A stretch of 54,681 nt of DNA from a virus. The stretch covers positions 1 to 54,681 of the IMG/VR virus record IMGVR_UViG_3300034022_000682; one strand, written 5' to 3'. Every line of letters begins with the position of its first letter. Positions within the stretch are counted from its first letter, which is position 1. Below are positions 3,036 to 50,999 of this stretch, in pieces. A program made the translations under genes and the position numbers. Below the pieces are notes generated by a model. The model searched no databases, was not told the DNA's origin, and saw only the letters and a program-made list of their open reading frames with translations.

Positions 3036-3043
3036 GATATATA
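3036..3043 (+). promoter_or_regulatory. Putative late promoter box GATATATA
   Basis: GATATATA starts 12 bases before the ATG at 3048 and directly follows a terminator. The same box precedes seven other genes here and resembles the T4 late box TATAAATA. If initiation is 5-7 bases downstream, as in T4, the transcript would begin almost at the start codon. The assignment is inference from recurrence. Confidence 0.5.
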
Positions 3044-3047
3044 CAAT

Positions 3048-3743
3048 ATGAGAACAATTTATAAATTTGAAGATTTCATGGGCGAGAGTAGAAGTAAGTG
3101 GGACGGTTTAGCATCTAGTTTAACTAGTCTTGTATTCAAGGCATGGATTAAAGGATACCAGAACGGTATGTCTGAGATAAATTACATGGATCAAATAGAA
3201 GATAAATTAGAATTTGATCTTGACGCTACAATTTACATTGATAAAAGATTCAAGGGATTTGAAGTCTTAGAAGGTACTGGTGCCGATGCTAGAGACATTG
3301 ATGACGACGACGATGATCAAACTCCTTTTATTAATATATACTTTGGTATAAATCCTGAATGGTTACCCGGAGAATGGTCTATGGTTTATTTTCATTTAGC
3401 AGATGTAATGCGACATGAAATGGAACATATTACACAAGATGGTGCAGGTGTTGGTAATTATAAAGCTGGAAAACCAAATGAAGATGATTCTGAACTTAGA
3501 CATCTTATTAATCTGGGAATATTACCTAAAGCACATTATATGATGTTACCGAAAGAAGTTGATGCTAATTTACATGGACTTAGATTCGAAGCTAAGAAAA
3601 GAAGAGAACCAATTATAGATGCAATCAATAGATACTTAGATACACAAGAACAAGGTGGTATTATTGATGGTGTCGAACGAGAAGAGATATTAGATCTTTG
3701 GAGACGAAGAGCACAACAAATCGGTGGAATACCTAAATTTTAA
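3048..3743 (+). CDS. Putative packaged HExxH metallopeptidase-like protein
   Basis: This 231-residue protein begins MRTIYKFEDFMGES, one of several related N-termini in this cassette that resemble the T4 capsid-targeting peptide. A prohead-protease-type site (M-x-E) would lie at residues 11-13. The body has HEMEH at 123-127, a classic HExxH zinc motif, and a candidate third ligand E170 in LPKEVDANLHG. A very acidic run (DIDDDDDDQ) lies at 83-91. Known biology: HExxH plus a downstream Glu is typical of gluzincin peptidases. Inference: it is carried in the head and injected. No signal peptide or membrane segment is seen. The substrate is unknown and catalysis is not shown; it could be a zinc protein without peptidase activity. 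Confidence 0.7.
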   Translation: MRTIYKFEDFMGESRSKWDGLASSLTSLVFKAWIKGYQNGMSEINYMDQIEDKLEFDLDATIYIDKRFKGFEVLEGTGADARDIDDDDDDQTPFINIYFGINPEWLPGEWSMVYFHLADVMRHEMEHITQDGAGVGNYKAGKPNEDDSELRHLINLGILPKAHYMMLPKEVDANLHGLRFEAKKRREPIIDAINRYLDTQEQGGIIDGVEREEILDLWRRRAQQIGGIPKF

Positions 3744-3746
3744 ACT

Positions 3747-4295
3747 ATGAAACACGTAAAATTATTCGAAGAATTTATGAATGAAAAATCAGGAGACTCT
3801 TATTCTTCAGGTTGTGTAATGCTATACTTTAACTTTCCAACAATGAACAAGATTCATGAAGCGATAGATGAAGCTGACTTATACGAAGAAGAGGGTGATA
3901 GAACATTTGGCCTTGAAGATGAGCCACATTGCACTTTATTATATGGACTTGAAGGTTCTGTAACAGTGTCGCAAGTAACTGAGATCTTAAATACCCAAAT
4001 ATTTGGAACTTGCAAAGTACATAATGCTTCTTTATTTGAGAATCAATATGACGTACTTAAATTTGATGTCAATGGCGATTCTTTAAATGCATGCAACAAA
4101 GCGTTGTGTGAACTTCCATATAACAGTGATTTTCCAGACTATCATGCACATATGACTGTTGCTTATTTAAAGAAAGGTACCGGTAAAAAGTATTGTGAAT
4201 CTATGAGTGGACAAGAATATGAATTAGTACCGACATATGCTGTTTTTAGTCAACCTGATGGAACTAAAACAGAAATAAAAATTAAAGTAAATTAG
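3747..4295 (+). CDS. Putative packaged 2H phosphoesterase
   Basis: This 182-residue protein begins MKHVKLFEEFMNEKSG, the clearest capsid-targeting-like N-terminus in the window, with a potential cleavage after E13. It then carries two H-x-T motifs: PHCTLLYG (H61, T63) and YHAHMTVAYL (H135, T137). Paired HxT/S motifs about 70 residues apart define the 2H phosphoesterase superfamily (LigT, CPDase, T4 Acb1). These enzymes open or hydrolyse 2'-5' or cyclic phosphodiester bonds. The gene starts 4 bases after the previous stop and is co-oriented with the other tagged genes. Inference: it is delivered with the DNA and may act on nucleotide second messengers or RNA ends. The exact substrate cannot be read from the sequence. 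Confidence 0.75.
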   Translation: MKHVKLFEEFMNEKSGDSYSSGCVMLYFNFPTMNKIHEAIDEADLYEEEGDRTFGLEDEPHCTLLYGLEGSVTVSQVTEILNTQIFGTCKVHNASLFENQYDVLKFDVNGDSLNACNKALCELPYNSDFPDYHAHMTVAYLKKGTGKKYCESMSGQEYELVPTYAVFSQPDGTKTEIKIKVN

Positions 4296-4299
4296 TCTA

Positions 4300-4482
4300 A
4301 TGGGCAAATACTGTATTATCAAACACATTAATTCAATAAATGGGACAAAAGTTCCAGTAATTATTCTAGATAGCTTAGGAGAAGTTTTAGAATTTGAAGA
4401 ATTACATGAAGCTGAAGATTTAAAGGAGCTCTTTCAAAAGAATTCGGATTCTGGTTATACGTATACTGTAAAAAAGATATAA
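4300..4482 (+). CDS. Small hypothetical protein
   Basis: A 60-residue ORF sits tightly between two tagged genes, 5 bases after one stop and 2 bases before the next ATG. It begins MGKYCIIKHINSINGTKVPV and lacks the capsid-targeting-like peptide. It has a basic beta-like first half and an acidic helical second half (EFEELHEAEDLKELFQK). I do not recognise a family. Support for its being real is the tight spacing and co-orientation. Confidence 0.6.
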   Translation: MGKYCIIKHINSINGTKVPVIILDSLGEVLEFEELHEAEDLKELFQKNSDSGYTYTVKKI

Positions 4483-4484
4483 TC

Positions 4485-4940
4485 ATGAAACATATAAAAC
4501 TTTTTGAGAAATTTATAGAAGACAGAATTAAATGTGATAACTGTGGGTGGACATGGGATCTTAAAAAGGGTGGTAAGGATTTATATATATGTCATGAATG
4601 TTTTCATGATAATACTGAGATTGCGAATGAATCATTTGTGTTACGAGATTTAGAAGATAAATATGGTATAGATTTGGATTTATATGACAATGGTAAATTC
4701 TTAGAATTATCAAGGATCGTTATTCCAAAAGATAAAAGAGGCGAAGGTATTGGATCTGAAATCATGCAACAAATTAATGATTATGCCGATTCTAAAGGTT
4801 TAAAAATATACTTAACGCCATCTAAAGATTTTGGAGCTACTTCAACTTCTAGGTTAGAAAAGTTTTATAAAGATCATGGATTTGTAAAGAATACTGATAA
4901 GAGTGAAACCAGAAATACAATGGTAAGATTACCACAATAA
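4485..4940 (+). CDS. Putative packaged zinc-ribbon GNAT acetyltransferase
   Basis: The 151-residue protein has three visible parts. Residues 1-14 are a capsid-targeting-like peptide (MKHIKLFEKFIEDR). Residues 17-39 hold two CxxC pairs (C17/C20 and C36/C39) that should form a zinc ribbon. Residues 60-151 look like a GNAT N-acetyltransferase domain, with the acetyl-CoA loop RGEGIG at 85-90 after a hydrophobic strand (LELSRIVIP). The C-terminal RLEKFYKDHGFVKN is the usual GNAT motif B region. Inference: it is an injected acetyltransferase that could modify a host protein or small molecule early in infection. The substrate is unknown. Confidence 0.75.
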   Translation: MKHIKLFEKFIEDRIKCDNCGWTWDLKKGGKDLYICHECFHDNTEIANESFVLRDLEDKYGIDLDLYDNGKFLELSRIVIPKDKRGEGIGSEIMQQINDYADSKGLKIYLTPSKDFGATSTSRLEKFYKDHGFVKNTDKSETRNTMVRLPQ

Positions 4941-4943
4941 ATT

Positions 4944-5819
4944 ATGAAGAAAGTATTATTATTTGAAGAGTTTCTAGATGAAGCTAAAAAGAAAATGGAC
5001 AATCCATGTTGGAAAGGTTATACTATGTATGGTACTAAAACTGATGAGGATGGAAATGAAGTACCTAATTGTATTCCTGTCGAAGAATCAAATAATATAG
5101 AAGACTCTTATAATGATTATCCTGAAGATGCTAAAAAGAATGCTCAGTTGGCAATTGACTGGAAAGAGAAATATGGTAGAGATAAAGTTGAAGCTGGAAC
5201 TGCAGTTGGTTGGGCAAGAGCTAATCAATTAGCTAAAGGTGAAAATATATCAGGTGATACTGTAAAAAGAATGGCATCATTCAATAGACATCGTAAAAAT
5301 TCAACTATTGCTCCTGAATTTAAAGAGACTCCATGGTTAGACAAAGGATATGTTTCTTGGTTGATTTGGGGTGGAGATGAAGGTGTTGATTGGGCTTTAG
5401 AAAAATCTAAAACAATTACAGAAAGCAAATCTCTTTTCGAAGAATTCTTATTAGAAAAGGGTAAGAAAAGCAAACCAAAAACCGATAAAGAAAAAATTAA
5501 GGACCTGTCTAAAAAACAAAAAGGTCTTGCTAAAAAAGTAAGAGATATTAAAGGTGATATGCTTGATATTTCAAAAGATAAAGAAAAGGAGCCTACTGAT
5601 AAACTACAAGGTTTATTACTAAAAACTCAAATGCAGCAATCTGCTGTAGATGCTAAAAAGGCAGAAGTTCAAATTCAGCAAATTGGTTTAAAAGCTAAAT
5701 TAAAAACTGCAAAGAAAAAAGAAAAGGCGCTTAAGGATGCAGAGAAAGATAATCCTAAACCTGAAGTCGAAGTTAAACCAAAAGAAAAGTCTAATAAAGA
5801 TAACCCTAAAAAAGCTTAA
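4944..5819 (+). CDS. Packaged protein with two targeting-like peptides and a phage domain of unknown function
   Basis: This 291-residue protein starts MKKVLLFEEFLDEAKKK, a capsid-targeting-like peptide. Residues about 18-46 form a short CWKGYTMYGTK...PNCIPVEE segment seen in many phage head or protease proteins. Residues 55-153 match, from memory, a widespread phage domain of unknown function (pattern AIDWKEKYGR...ARANQLAKGENIS..TVKRMASFNRH...WLIWGGDEG). A second targeting-like peptide, SLFEEFLLEKGKK, occurs internally at about 163-175, followed by a Lys/Glu-rich coiled-coil-like tail. It may be a fusion of two tagged proteins, or be cleaved twice by the prohead protease into separate peptides. 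Function unknown. Confidence 0.7.
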   Translation: MKKVLLFEEFLDEAKKKMDNPCWKGYTMYGTKTDEDGNEVPNCIPVEESNNIEDSYNDYPEDAKKNAQLAIDWKEKYGRDKVEAGTAVGWARANQLAKGENISGDTVKRMASFNRHRKNSTIAPEFKETPWLDKGYVSWLIWGGDEGVDWALEKSKTITESKSLFEEFLLEKGKKSKPKTDKEKIKDLSKKQKGLAKKVRDIKGDMLDISKDKEKEPTDKLQGLLLKTQMQQSAVDAKKAEVQIQQIGLKAKLKTAKKKEKALKDAEKDNPKPEVEVKPKEKSNKDNPKKA

Positions 5820-6695
5820 ATGCATTTATACGATACTGATTTTTTTAAGCGAAGCCGTGTGTGGAGAGCTGATTTTTTAGAAAAACTCAAGACAAAACCT
5901 GCACAATATTGGTATGATTATCAATATGATCTAGAACAACACATAGATAAAATATATGTGTTATATCTTCCACATCGAGAAGATAAGAAAAATATATTAA
6001 CAGAAAGATTAAAACAAACCAAAACTAAAGAATCAAATCTATTGGATTCAGTTACTTGGTGGGAAGGTCATTTTAATAAAACTGAATGGGATCCTAAAAT
6101 ACACGATGCCAATTATTCATTAAAATATGCATGGGATATTGAACCTACTCCCGAAGTAATATATAATATTGGTCTAGGCGGAAATGTTATCATAGATGAT
6201 CTAAATAAAATTAGCGTTACTGCATCTCTACCGGAAAGTAATATAGCATTAGGACATGCATCTATTTTACAAGATATAGTCGATAATGATATTCAACATG
6301 CACTTATATTGGAAGACGATGCATTATTTAGTCCTGGTTTTTCTTGGTTAATGGAAAGAATGTTTAAGCAATTACCAGATGATTGGGATATATTTTATGT
6401 TTCATATCAACCGTCTATATATGGATTTAAAAGTGAACCATATACCGAAGACATAGTTAAGATTACATCCGGTGTATGGTGGCTTTCAGGCGTTTTTATT
6501 AATCAAAGAGCTGCTAAGAAATTAATAGATAATTTTCCTATTATTGGTCCAATAGATGTTTGGATCAACTATCATTTTGATGATTTGAACGTATATGGTA
6601 CAATGTATAATTGTATTAATCAGGATTATAAATCTACTTCTGATAATAAAAACTCTTTTAGAGGAGCCATAGACAATTTGAAAAATAATTTGTAA
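5820..6695 (+). CDS. Glycosyltransferase family 25-like protein
   Basis: The 291-residue protein starts immediately after the previous stop codon. IDKIYVLYLPHREDKK near residue 42, SNIALGHASILQDIV, and HALILEDDALFSPGF (the EDD motif near 165) are the signature of GT25, the LPS/lipooligosaccharide glycosyltransferases. The acidic EDD motif binds the sugar nucleotide through a metal. No signal or membrane segment is visible, so it should act in the cytoplasm on a lipid-linked or protein acceptor. It lacks the capsid-targeting-like N-terminus of its neighbours. It may alter host surface sugars to block re-adsorption or decorate virion proteins; the sequence does not decide. Confidence 0.75.
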   Translation: MHLYDTDFFKRSRVWRADFLEKLKTKPAQYWYDYQYDLEQHIDKIYVLYLPHREDKKNILTERLKQTKTKESNLLDSVTWWEGHFNKTEWDPKIHDANYSLKYAWDIEPTPEVIYNIGLGGNVIIDDLNKISVTASLPESNIALGHASILQDIVDNDIQHALILEDDALFSPGFSWLMERMFKQLPDDWDIFYVSYQPSIYGFKSEPYTEDIVKITSGVWWLSGVFINQRAAKKLIDNFPIIGPIDVWINYHFDDLNVYGTMYNCINQDYKSTSDNKNSFRGAIDNLKNNL

Positions 6696-6706
6696 TTAAT
6701 TACATG

Positions 6707-6718
6707 GATATATAAATA
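6707..6718 (+). promoter_or_regulatory. Putative late promoter GATATATAAATA
   Basis: This 12-base box contains TATAAATA exactly, the T4 late promoter consensus, and lies 29 bases (first G to A of ATG) before the acidic core-like gene. It is the best T4-like match in the window. Confidence 0.65.
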
Positions 6719-6735
6719 AAAAATAATACCTTATT

Positions 6736-7329
6736 ATGACTAAAAAAATACTATCATTCGAAGAGTATGCTGCTAGTAAAAACTTTACTAGTAACGATGA
6801 TATTGCCGAAGAAAACGAAGAACTTTGTGAAACTTGTGAAAAGGATCCATGTATATGTGAATCTTCCGAAGAAGATGAAGACGACGAGGAAGAAGAATCT
6901 GAAGAATCTGAAGAATCTGAAGATGAAGACGAGGATGAAGATGAGGAAGAATCTGATGAGCATGAAAAATTAGAAAGTCCAGACGAAGAAGCTAAAGAAG
7001 ATGAAGAAGAAGCTGAAGGCGGTGAAAAAGCTGAAGACGATCAAAAAGTAAAAACAGTAGCAGAAATGTTAGAATCATGTTTTAGCGATGCTGTTAAAGA
7101 AGCATGTGATTATGACAAAGATGAGTATCCTGACCATACTTTAGAATCATATCTTAAAGAAAATGCTTCATTAATTGCAGCAATGAGTGCTAAGACTTTA
7201 GAGCAAGCACACGCTGAACTTAATGATGAAGCTCTTGAAAAAGAAATGTATGAAGCATGTCTTAATGATATGAAGGAATCTTATTGTAAAAAAATAGAAG
7301 AGCTTAAAGAAGCTTGGTCAGCACAGTAA
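6736..7329 (+). CDS. Highly acidic head-core-like protein with Cys cluster
   Basis: The 197-residue protein begins MTKKILSFEEYAASK, a divergent version of the capsid-targeting-like peptide. It then has a compact Cys cluster (C31, C34, C39, C41 in LCETCEKDPCICES) that could bind zinc. Residues about 43-105 are almost all Glu and Asp, and the rest is predicted helical (residues about 108-197). Small acidic proteins with a processed N-terminus are typical of T4 prohead cores (gp67/PIP type). Inference: scaffold-core or internal head protein. It has its own promoter-like box, consistent with a need for high expression. Confidence 0.6.
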   Translation: MTKKILSFEEYAASKNFTSNDDIAEENEELCETCEKDPCICESSEEDEDDEEEESEESEESEDEDEDEDEEESDEHEKLESPDEEAKEDEEEAEGGEKAEDDQKVKTVAEMLESCFSDAVKEACDYDKDEYPDHTLESYLKENASLIAAMSAKTLEQAHAELNDEALEKEMYEACLNDMKESYCKKIEELKEAWSAQ

Positions 7330-7331
7330 TT

Positions 7332-7631
7332 ATGAAACACTTAAAAACATTTGAAGCATATTCTTTCGATCACGAAGGAACCGATATTAGAAACCCATTC
7401 ACAGATGAGACATCAATGAATGATGTTGATCCTAATAGTTATTACGGTAAAGACTATGCAAAATCAGACATTAAAAAAATTGTTGATGCATCTGAAAATT
7501 TTATAGCTAAGTATAACGAGTGGAAAGAATTAAATCCTTTAGATAAAAGCGAAGATTTAAATGCTAACTACGAAGAATATGTTAAACCTGCTTTAGATAT
7601 ATTAACAAATATAGTAAAGAAACACGGGTAA
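7332..7631 (+). CDS. Small capsid-targeted-like protein
   Basis: I place the start at ATG 7332, two bases after the previous stop, giving 99 residues. An upstream TTG at 7314 is in frame but overlaps the previous gene and would bury the conserved N-terminus. The protein begins MKHLKTFEAYSFDHEG, matching the first half of the tagged N-termini (MKHxKxFE) but losing the hydrophobic-x-Glu cleavage site. The remainder is acidic and helical and is not recognised. It is the last gene before a terminator. Confidence 0.65.
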   Translation: MKHLKTFEAYSFDHEGTDIRNPFTDETSMNDVDPNSYYGKDYAKSDIKKIVDASENFIAKYNEWKELNPLDKSEDLNANYEEYVKPALDILTNIVKKHG

Positions 7632-50618: not shown

Positions 50619-50627
50619 GATATATAA
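50619..50627 (+). promoter_or_regulatory. Putative late promoter GATATATAA
   Basis: The box starts 12 bases before the ATG at 50631 (GATATATAACATATG). The spacing equals that of the box at 3036, the other one in front of a capsid-targeted gene. Confidence 0.5.
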
Positions 50628-50630
50628 CAT

Positions 50631-50999
50631 ATGAAAACATTTAATACTTACTTGCTTGAAAACTCAGCTACTGAAAAAGAGATGAAACTTATTAATGAAG
50701 GTTTACAAGAAGAGTGGACCCCAGAATTAGAAGCTAAAATCAACGCGGCTTTGGAATCATTTGCTTTAGAATATCAAAGACCCGATGGTACATATGATAT
50801 TGAAAAACTTAATGAAGAAATTACAAATGAAGGTTTCTTTGGTTCTATTATTGGTGGAATTACTGGATTTGCTTTAGGTAAATCAGTAGGTATGATGATA
50901 GCTAAAGTACTTGGTATCGAAAAGGGTATTTTCTATGATTTATTAACCTCAAGACTAGTTGGTGCCGCTTTAGGTGCAAGTCTTGGTAATAGAATATAA
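50631..50999 (+). CDS. Capsid-targeted-like protein with Gly-zipper membrane segments
   Basis: The 122-residue protein begins MKTFNTYLLENSATEKE, close to T4 internal proteins (MKTYQEFIAE) with a possible cleavage after E10 (L-L-E). After a charged helical region (15-67), residues 68-120 are small and hydrophobic with regularly spaced glycines: GFFGSIIGGITGFALGKSVGMMIAKVLG, then LVGAALGASLGNRI. This is a Gly-zipper pattern able to insert into or cross a membrane. Inference: a packaged protein that enters the host envelope during DNA delivery, or a minor head protein. Confidence 0.65.
   Translation: MKTFNTYLLENSATEKEMKLINEGLQEEWTPELEAKINAALESFALEYQRPDGTYDIEKLNEEITNEGFFGSIIGGITGFALGKSVGMMIAKVLGIEKGIFYDLLTSRLVGAALGASLGNRI

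Follow-up and report, generated by a model that had tools for sequence, protein, structure and literature searches.

Tagged genes of the window

The window, by which we mean the whole stretch of 54,681 bases analysed here, is a fragmentary IMG/VR virus record of 32% G+C with genes for a T4-type tail tube, baseplate, SSB and primase. Neither a gp21-family prohead protease gene nor capsid genes were found in this fragment. It is collinear with the 150-kb record G008 (IMGVR_UViG_3300031705_000001), which encodes a gp21-family protease, and the proteins common to both are mostly roughly 60-91% identical. In the phage collection, the uncultured phage LR756500.1 (462 kb) is the closest long relative. 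The window phage probably has a Bacteroidetes host, since its cultured relatives, which are distant, are phages of Flavobacterium, Tenacibaculum or Chryseobacterium. Seven genes start with variants of one short peptide, here called the tag (a slash marks a cleavage site, which for the tagged proteins is predicted):

3048..3743, + strand: tagged HExxH protein, 231 amino acids (tag alignment in eight relatives; AF2 model)
3048-3086, + strand: tag of the 3048 gene, MRTIYKFEDFMGE/SR, predicted cut after Glu13
3747..4295, + strand: tagged 2H phosphoesterase, predicted Acb1-like, 182 amino acids, HxT at residues 61 and 135
3747-3785, + strand: tag of the 3747 gene, MKHVKLFEEFMNE/KS
4485..4940, + strand: tagged Zn-ribbon and GNAT protein, 151 amino acids (Pfam Acetyltransf_7, E 2.3e-7)
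4485-4523, + strand: tag of the 4485 gene, MKHIKLFEKFIED, residue 13 being Asp, not Glu
4944..5819, + strand: tagged protein, 291 amino acids, whose domain also occurs in head genes of other viruses
4944-4982, + strand: tag of the 4944 gene, MKKVLLFEEFLDE/AK
5436..5456, + strand: second, internal copy of the motif, FEEFLLE, residues 165-171 of the 4944 protein
6736..7329, + strand: tagged acidic protein, 197 amino acids, start MTKKILSFEEYAASK (MTKKILSFEEY)
7332..7631, + strand: tagged protein of unassigned fold, 99 amino acids, start MKHLKTFEAYSFDHE (MKHLKTFEAY)
50631..50999, + strand: distant tagged gene between the tail tube and RuvC genes, 122 amino acids, tag MKTFNTYLLE/NS

All seven ORFs for which the sequence-only reading had claimed such a start were found at these positions, and an aromatic pair starting at residues 4-8 is present in 7 of the 48 ORFs of the window (binomial p 3e-5). 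The same reading had seen a hydrophobic-x-Glu cleavage site behind the peptide in several members, and had missed the second, internal motif copy of the 4944 protein. The site is in place in the 3048, 3747, 4944 and 50631 proteins and is missing or displaced in three others: 4485 has the Asp, the 6736 protein has no site straight after the tag and instead a displaced IAE/E at residues 23-25, and near the tag of the 7332 protein such a site was not found. The displaced site parallels that of T4 IPI, ITE/A at residues 17-19. The description of 3048-7631 as a tagged cassette is correct for six genes and has to be amended for ORFs 4300 (60 amino acids) and 5820 (a GT25 glycosyltransferase), which lie within the interval and are untagged. 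The tag of the 50631 gene comprises exactly 10 residues, as in T4; the Gly-zipper label earlier attached to this protein is weak (E 0.002, below the cut-off). Homologs of the 50631 protein occur in G008, G002, G010 and LR756500, and those of the 6736 protein in G010 and G002, in the same place before dCMP deaminase.

Passenger domains and modularity

The model of the 3747 protein (pLDDT 87) has as its best matches the phage anti-CBASS enzymes 9q2y and 7t27 (E about 4e-6), closely trailed by other 2H enzymes. The fold test gave a 2H protein with two HxT motifs, at residues 61 and 135, that are conserved in the alignment. Its Pfam Acb1 score of 21.9 bits lies below the cut-off of 27, with 2_5_RNA_ligase2 scoring equally, and we therefore name the protein Acb1-like rather than Acb1. 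Judging from the model, this passenger is a 2H enzyme, predicted to be Acb1-like. The HExxH protein encoded at 3048 also gives a well-folded AF2 model (pLDDT 83, residues 1-12 below 50), for which neither a fold match in the PDB nor a convincing sequence match was found; the tag is poorly ordered in both models. In the haloarchaeal virus HGTV-1, the domain of the 4944 protein lies inside the protein annotated as prohead protease; it also occurs in head genes of other viruses.

Comparison of close relatives indicates how tags and passengers are combined. The near-identical relative L061 encodes an HExxH protein 95% identical to that of the window, has an additional tagged gene between the HExxH and 2H genes, and lacks ORFs 4300 and 7332; whole tagged genes are acquired or dropped from one near-identical phage to another. 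A G002 protein with 94% identity to the GNAT part of the 4485 protein lacks the Zn-ribbon and has the tag directly adjoining the GNAT domain; the GNAT homolog of G010 has no tag in front. The 2H homologs of Maribacter phage Molly and of LR756508 have no tag and begin at the tag boundary. The 105 tagged proteins of eight related records can be grouped into 68 passenger families, of which 52 are singletons, in agreement with the earlier observation of unlike domains behind one start peptide. A single paralogous family with C-terminal parts diverged past recognition would also have common N-termini, often in tandem, but the passengers are known unrelated folds and passenger homologs exist without the tag. 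Such an origin is refuted for passengers with assigned domains, and we hold it to be extremely improbable as an account of the set.

Distribution of the tag

A search for the motif across related phages, as the sequence-only reading had proposed, showed that the tag is by no means confined to the window. In IMG/VR, 89 stretches match a degenerate 30-base pattern for MKHxKLFEEF and none match its residue-shuffled version; the ORFs behind these matches are varied: besides a 2H enzyme, an AAA kinase and a nucleotidyltransferase, they include Zn-ribbon proteins and unassigned proteins. Applied to 21 phage records, a pattern looser than this one, hereafter called the strict tag pattern, gave 132 matches in 13 records (among them 22 in G001, 17 in LR756500 and 14 in G002) and its reversed control a single match. 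It had no match in immuto, pT24, MaF61, T4 or Lak-A1, and a tag with site was not found at the protein N-termini of the cultured phages immuto, pT24 and MaF61, which were considered as relatives with possible virion data; the search yielded no tag-bearing phage in culture. On at least 19 of its proteins, LR756500 has a tag of the Y type (MKYIxxYEEFxxE and variants). G018 and LR756500 have many matches in common and are probably near-duplicates; one of the three matches in G009 has a stop codon inside.

Positional statistics were obtained from 1,294 mechanical ORFs of eight phage records, which are akin to each other so that the ORFs are not fully independent; in this set, 95 ORFs (7.3%) have [FY]xx[FYW] beginning at residue 7, compared with a frequency of about 0.38% per position in the remainder. 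A hydrophobic-x-Glu site follows the aromatic pair in 75 of 132 cases (57%) at residues 4-8 and in 33 of 876 (4%) beyond residue 12 (Fisher 2e-50). With one representative per passenger family, the site is present after 47 of 63 N-terminal pairs versus 65 of 1179 (p 3e-40). The shuffled and reversed pattern controls, together with this internal background, rule out a chance origin of the tag.

Upstream octamer and codon usage

Several tagged genes are preceded by a late-promoter-like octamer, which in the window lies ahead of three of them:

3036..3043, + strand: GATATATA, exactly −12 from the 3048 ATG
6707..6714, + strand: GATATATA, −29 from the 6736 ATG
50619..50626, + strand: GATATATA, exactly −12 from the 50631 ATG

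This is the top enriched upstream 8-mer, with 132 upstream occurrences, nearly all on the coding strand, and none in the coding controls. It is found ahead of head, tail and baseplate genes, and precedes 18 of 38 operon-leading tagged genes versus 103 of 606 others (p 3e-5), a distribution that fits late expression of the tagged genes, if indirectly. The common start could itself be a nucleotide element, either a signal for translation initiation or for leaderless mRNA, or a repeat by which genes are shuffled through recombination, as might be argued from the octamer exactly 12 bases ahead of the ATG in several tagged genes and from the fact that tagged genes are shuffled. However, the majority of genes with the octamer at −12 are untagged, and codons for the same tag residue in different genes of one genome are identical in 65.6% of cases versus 59.7% expected from codon usage. 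DNA identity is thus not kept, which argues that selection maintains the peptide and not a DNA repeat. The codon analysis largely refutes a nucleotide element or recombination repeat, and we consider either to be very improbable.

Agreement with the T4 capsid-targeting sequence

The T4 internal proteins IPII and IPIII start with MKTYQEFIAE/A, and IPI with MKTFKEFTS, followed further on by ITE/A. According to T4 mutagenesis reviewed in PMC9026906, residues 4 and 7 serve targeting and residues 8 and 10 processing, with Asp at residue 10 permitting targeting but not processing. The tag FEEF-LNE is in register with T4 YQEF-IAE at both the targeting (4, 7) and the processing (8, 10) residues. In the alignment of the HExxH family, [FY], F, the aliphatic residue and E are kept in nearly all members and the other tag positions vary; at the aligned position, the immuto polyprotein has VMAE/GR. 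Being a fragment, the window has no head genes, and the main predictions of a T4-like targeting function were therefore tested on relatives; most of the sequence-level predictions were borne out.

We consider it highly probable that the peptide is a T4-type capsid-targeting sequence by which proteins are loaded into the head, then cut and probably ejected. The peptide might instead target proteins elsewhere in the infected cell, such as the membrane, the tail or a replication compartment, or be merely an extended protease site. The Glu site alone does account for part of the motif. Nevertheless, the cleavage-like sites of the capsid protein (LINE/A, LYE/D) need no aromatic pair whereas the tag keeps it, and this pair matches both the T4 targeting residues and the scaffold repeat described below, which makes another destination or a mere protease site quite improbable.

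Head operon and scaffold repeats

A gp21-family protease is encoded in 13 of the 17 tag-bearing IMG/VR records searched, and a gp23-type capsid protein likewise in 13; the rest are fragments. In seven relatives (G002, G007, G008, G010, G011, G012 and G017) the protease gene is immediately preceded on its 5′ side by a tagged gene of about 110 residues, and a gene with a tagged or tag-like start is located just past the capsid gene, separated from it in G010 and G011 by a glycosyltransferase-like gene. Since two tagged genes of the relatives are within the head operon, the tagged set is not purely one of effectors. It could even be proposed that tagged proteins in general enter the head by means of the tag and have their role within it, as components of the core, as structural proteins or in organising the DNA, and are not injected effectors. 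The tagged genes on both sides of the protease/capsid operon, the 4944 domain in head genes elsewhere and the conserved homologs of 50631 and 6736 would agree with this. Against it, most passengers are accessory and variable among close relatives, and enzyme folds (2H/Acb1-like, GNAT, zeta-toxin/AAA kinase) occur among them; a resident role for the whole set seems rather unlikely to us. We continue to favor targeting to the head followed by cleavage and probable ejection.

In the relatives, the prohead protease and a scaffold part are joined in a single protein, a pairing that PMC9723584 names as well. The scaffold half contains [YF]xx[YF][LIV]xE repeats, mostly at a spacing of 14 residues. 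The motif occurs in 13 tandem copies in G001 and 12 in LR756501; there are 10 copies in G005, 8 in G015 and 7 in G009, and only 2-3 in LR756500, G008, G011 and G012. Two or more internal copies were found only in the seven protease-scaffold proteins, which belong to the seven head-module genomes of the eight records. The repeats came to light in the internal background count. LR756501 has scaffold repeats yet no match to the strict tag pattern. In immuto, pT24 and Lak-A1, from which the strict tag pattern is absent too, neither protease nor scaffold proteins were found to have such repeats; T4 gp22 has none either, though T4 possesses the targeting sequence.

When scored with the scaffold-repeat profile, T4 YQEFIAE reaches the score of the one top-ranking window among 330,140 from the proteomes. 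The profile recovers the tags moderately, with 7 of the top 100 windows being tags at residue 7 where 0.39 are expected, and the tags favor F and N where the scaffold repeat has Y and A. Because the tags fit the repeat profile only moderately, the proposal that the tag binds by imitating the 14-residue scaffold repeat is one that we regard as evenly balanced between true and false.

Proposed mechanism and implications

The tagged proteins would be made late in infection alongside head and tail proteins. The aromatic pair and the aliphatic residue ([FY]xxF-[LIVM]) may attach to the prohead's inner scaffold core, and the passenger would thereby be enclosed as the shell forms. The gp21-type prohead protease would then cut after the Glu behind the tag and release the passenger within the head, from which it would probably exit with the DNA into the next host. 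Packaging and cleavage of the tagged proteins are well supported by the sequence comparisons but unproven; injection of the passengers into the host is what we infer by analogy with T4. If mimicry applies, the scaffold would be largely a tandem 14-residue repeat, [DE]K.I.Y[SA]EY[LI]AE[NS][LV], each unit of which would provide an assembly surface as well as a protease site. Cargo would enter the head wearing one N-terminal unit, and the cuts that dismantle the scaffold would also free the cargo.

If the targeting function is correct, the head-packed proteins of a huge phage can be predicted merely by reading the sequence of a 13-residue start. These may number as many as about 20 in one genome, and the strict tag pattern occurs in 13 of the 21 phage records searched. 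The outcome would be a list of candidates for injected proteins of counter-defence and takeover, including the Acb1-like enzyme. Mimicry, if true, would moreover suggest a binding partner of the T4-type capsid-targeting sequence and a reason for the protease site at its end, and would describe a general protein-loading system in which new cargo is recruited by adding about 13 residues.

Comparison with known systems

The system is a much enlarged version of the T4 internal-protein system. We found no published account of it: no paper with the peptide, or with such repeats plus targeting, was present in the literature covered, which comprised few subscription journals and no preprints. Like T4 IPI-IPIII, the tagged proteins have a short leader with aromatics three residues apart and then hydrophobic-x-Glu, and in both systems the mature parts are unrelated, and the loci are variable and accessory. 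Like T4, most tag-bearing records encode a gp21-family protease. A tagged gene of the relatives also occupies the position of gp67/gp68. The T-even Ip1-3 products inhibit type IV restriction enzymes (PMC12373910), and the gain and loss of tagged genes resembles the variable internal-protein loci of T-even phages. In contrast to T4, the leader has 13 residues instead of 10 (the 50631 protein excepted), a record may have as many as about 20 tagged genes where T4 has three, passengers are enzyme-like, the protease is fused to the scaffold, and the motif is repeated in the scaffold, unlike in gp22.

The bS21 phages of Bacteroidetes likewise have a scaffold/protease protein, and the available text of PMC9723584 on these phages describes neither an N-terminal tag nor a scaffold repeat and contains a remark pointing to packaging of bS21. 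In our set, bS21 is encoded in G002, G007, G008, G010 and G012; it was considered as a tagged cargo and set aside, as its reading frames comprise only 65-72 amino acids. Giant phages of the SPN3US/phiKZ type also load many proteins into the head, where the prohead protease cuts them.PMC5694885 Their propeptides are mostly longer than 100 residues and only occasionally similar to one another,PMC5694885 whereas the leader of the tagged proteins comprises 10-13 residues and is common to dozens of proteins.

Octamer upstream of start codons

Across eight related phage records, 21 genes carry the late-promoter-like octamer GATATATA exactly 12 bases 5' of the start codon, and the remaining copies lie at -25 to -65 from it. 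The window holds the following copies with this spacing:

3036-3043, GATATATA at -12, ATG of 3048
50619-50626, GATATATA at -12, ATG of 50631

If the octamer is a T4-late-like -10 element, the genes with the -12 spacing would give leaderless late mRNAs.

Tagged proteins and their homologs

ORF 3048, the tagged HExxH protein, is homologous to the C-terminal HExxH region of gp088 from the cultured distant phage immuto; this region is preceded by VMAE|GR, a possible cleavage site. The immuto protein (L001:27131-29854, 908 aa) is annotated as NadR and also has two HExxH regions inside. L113 (G010 104868, 309 aa) consists of an untagged GNAT domain, an in-frame MKHLNLFESFVNEA and a second passenger, in that order, and is a fusion with an internal tag. 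Another relative encodes a tagged protein that, by eye, looks Dps/ferritin-like:

L137:522-935 (G015 80522), tagged protein, start MITTFNNFVNE

Within the tagged cassette, window 5820-6695 encodes a GT25-family glycosyltransferase without the tag, which the near-identical relative L061 has too. Genes for ribosomal protein bS21 are carried by G002, G007, G008, G010, G012, LR756501 and LR756504.

Scaffold repeat and T4

In four phage records the scaffold contains a 14-residue repeat that recurs regularly over long stretches, with a hydrophobic-Ala-Glu site in every repeat unit:

L242, L244, L247, L248, protease-scaffold genes from G001, G005, LR756501, LR756504

In T4 (L179:13591-14410), the gene for 57B, a 2H enzyme, adjoins the ipI gene; 57B starts with MMEFKDF, which has an aromatic pair three apart without the site.
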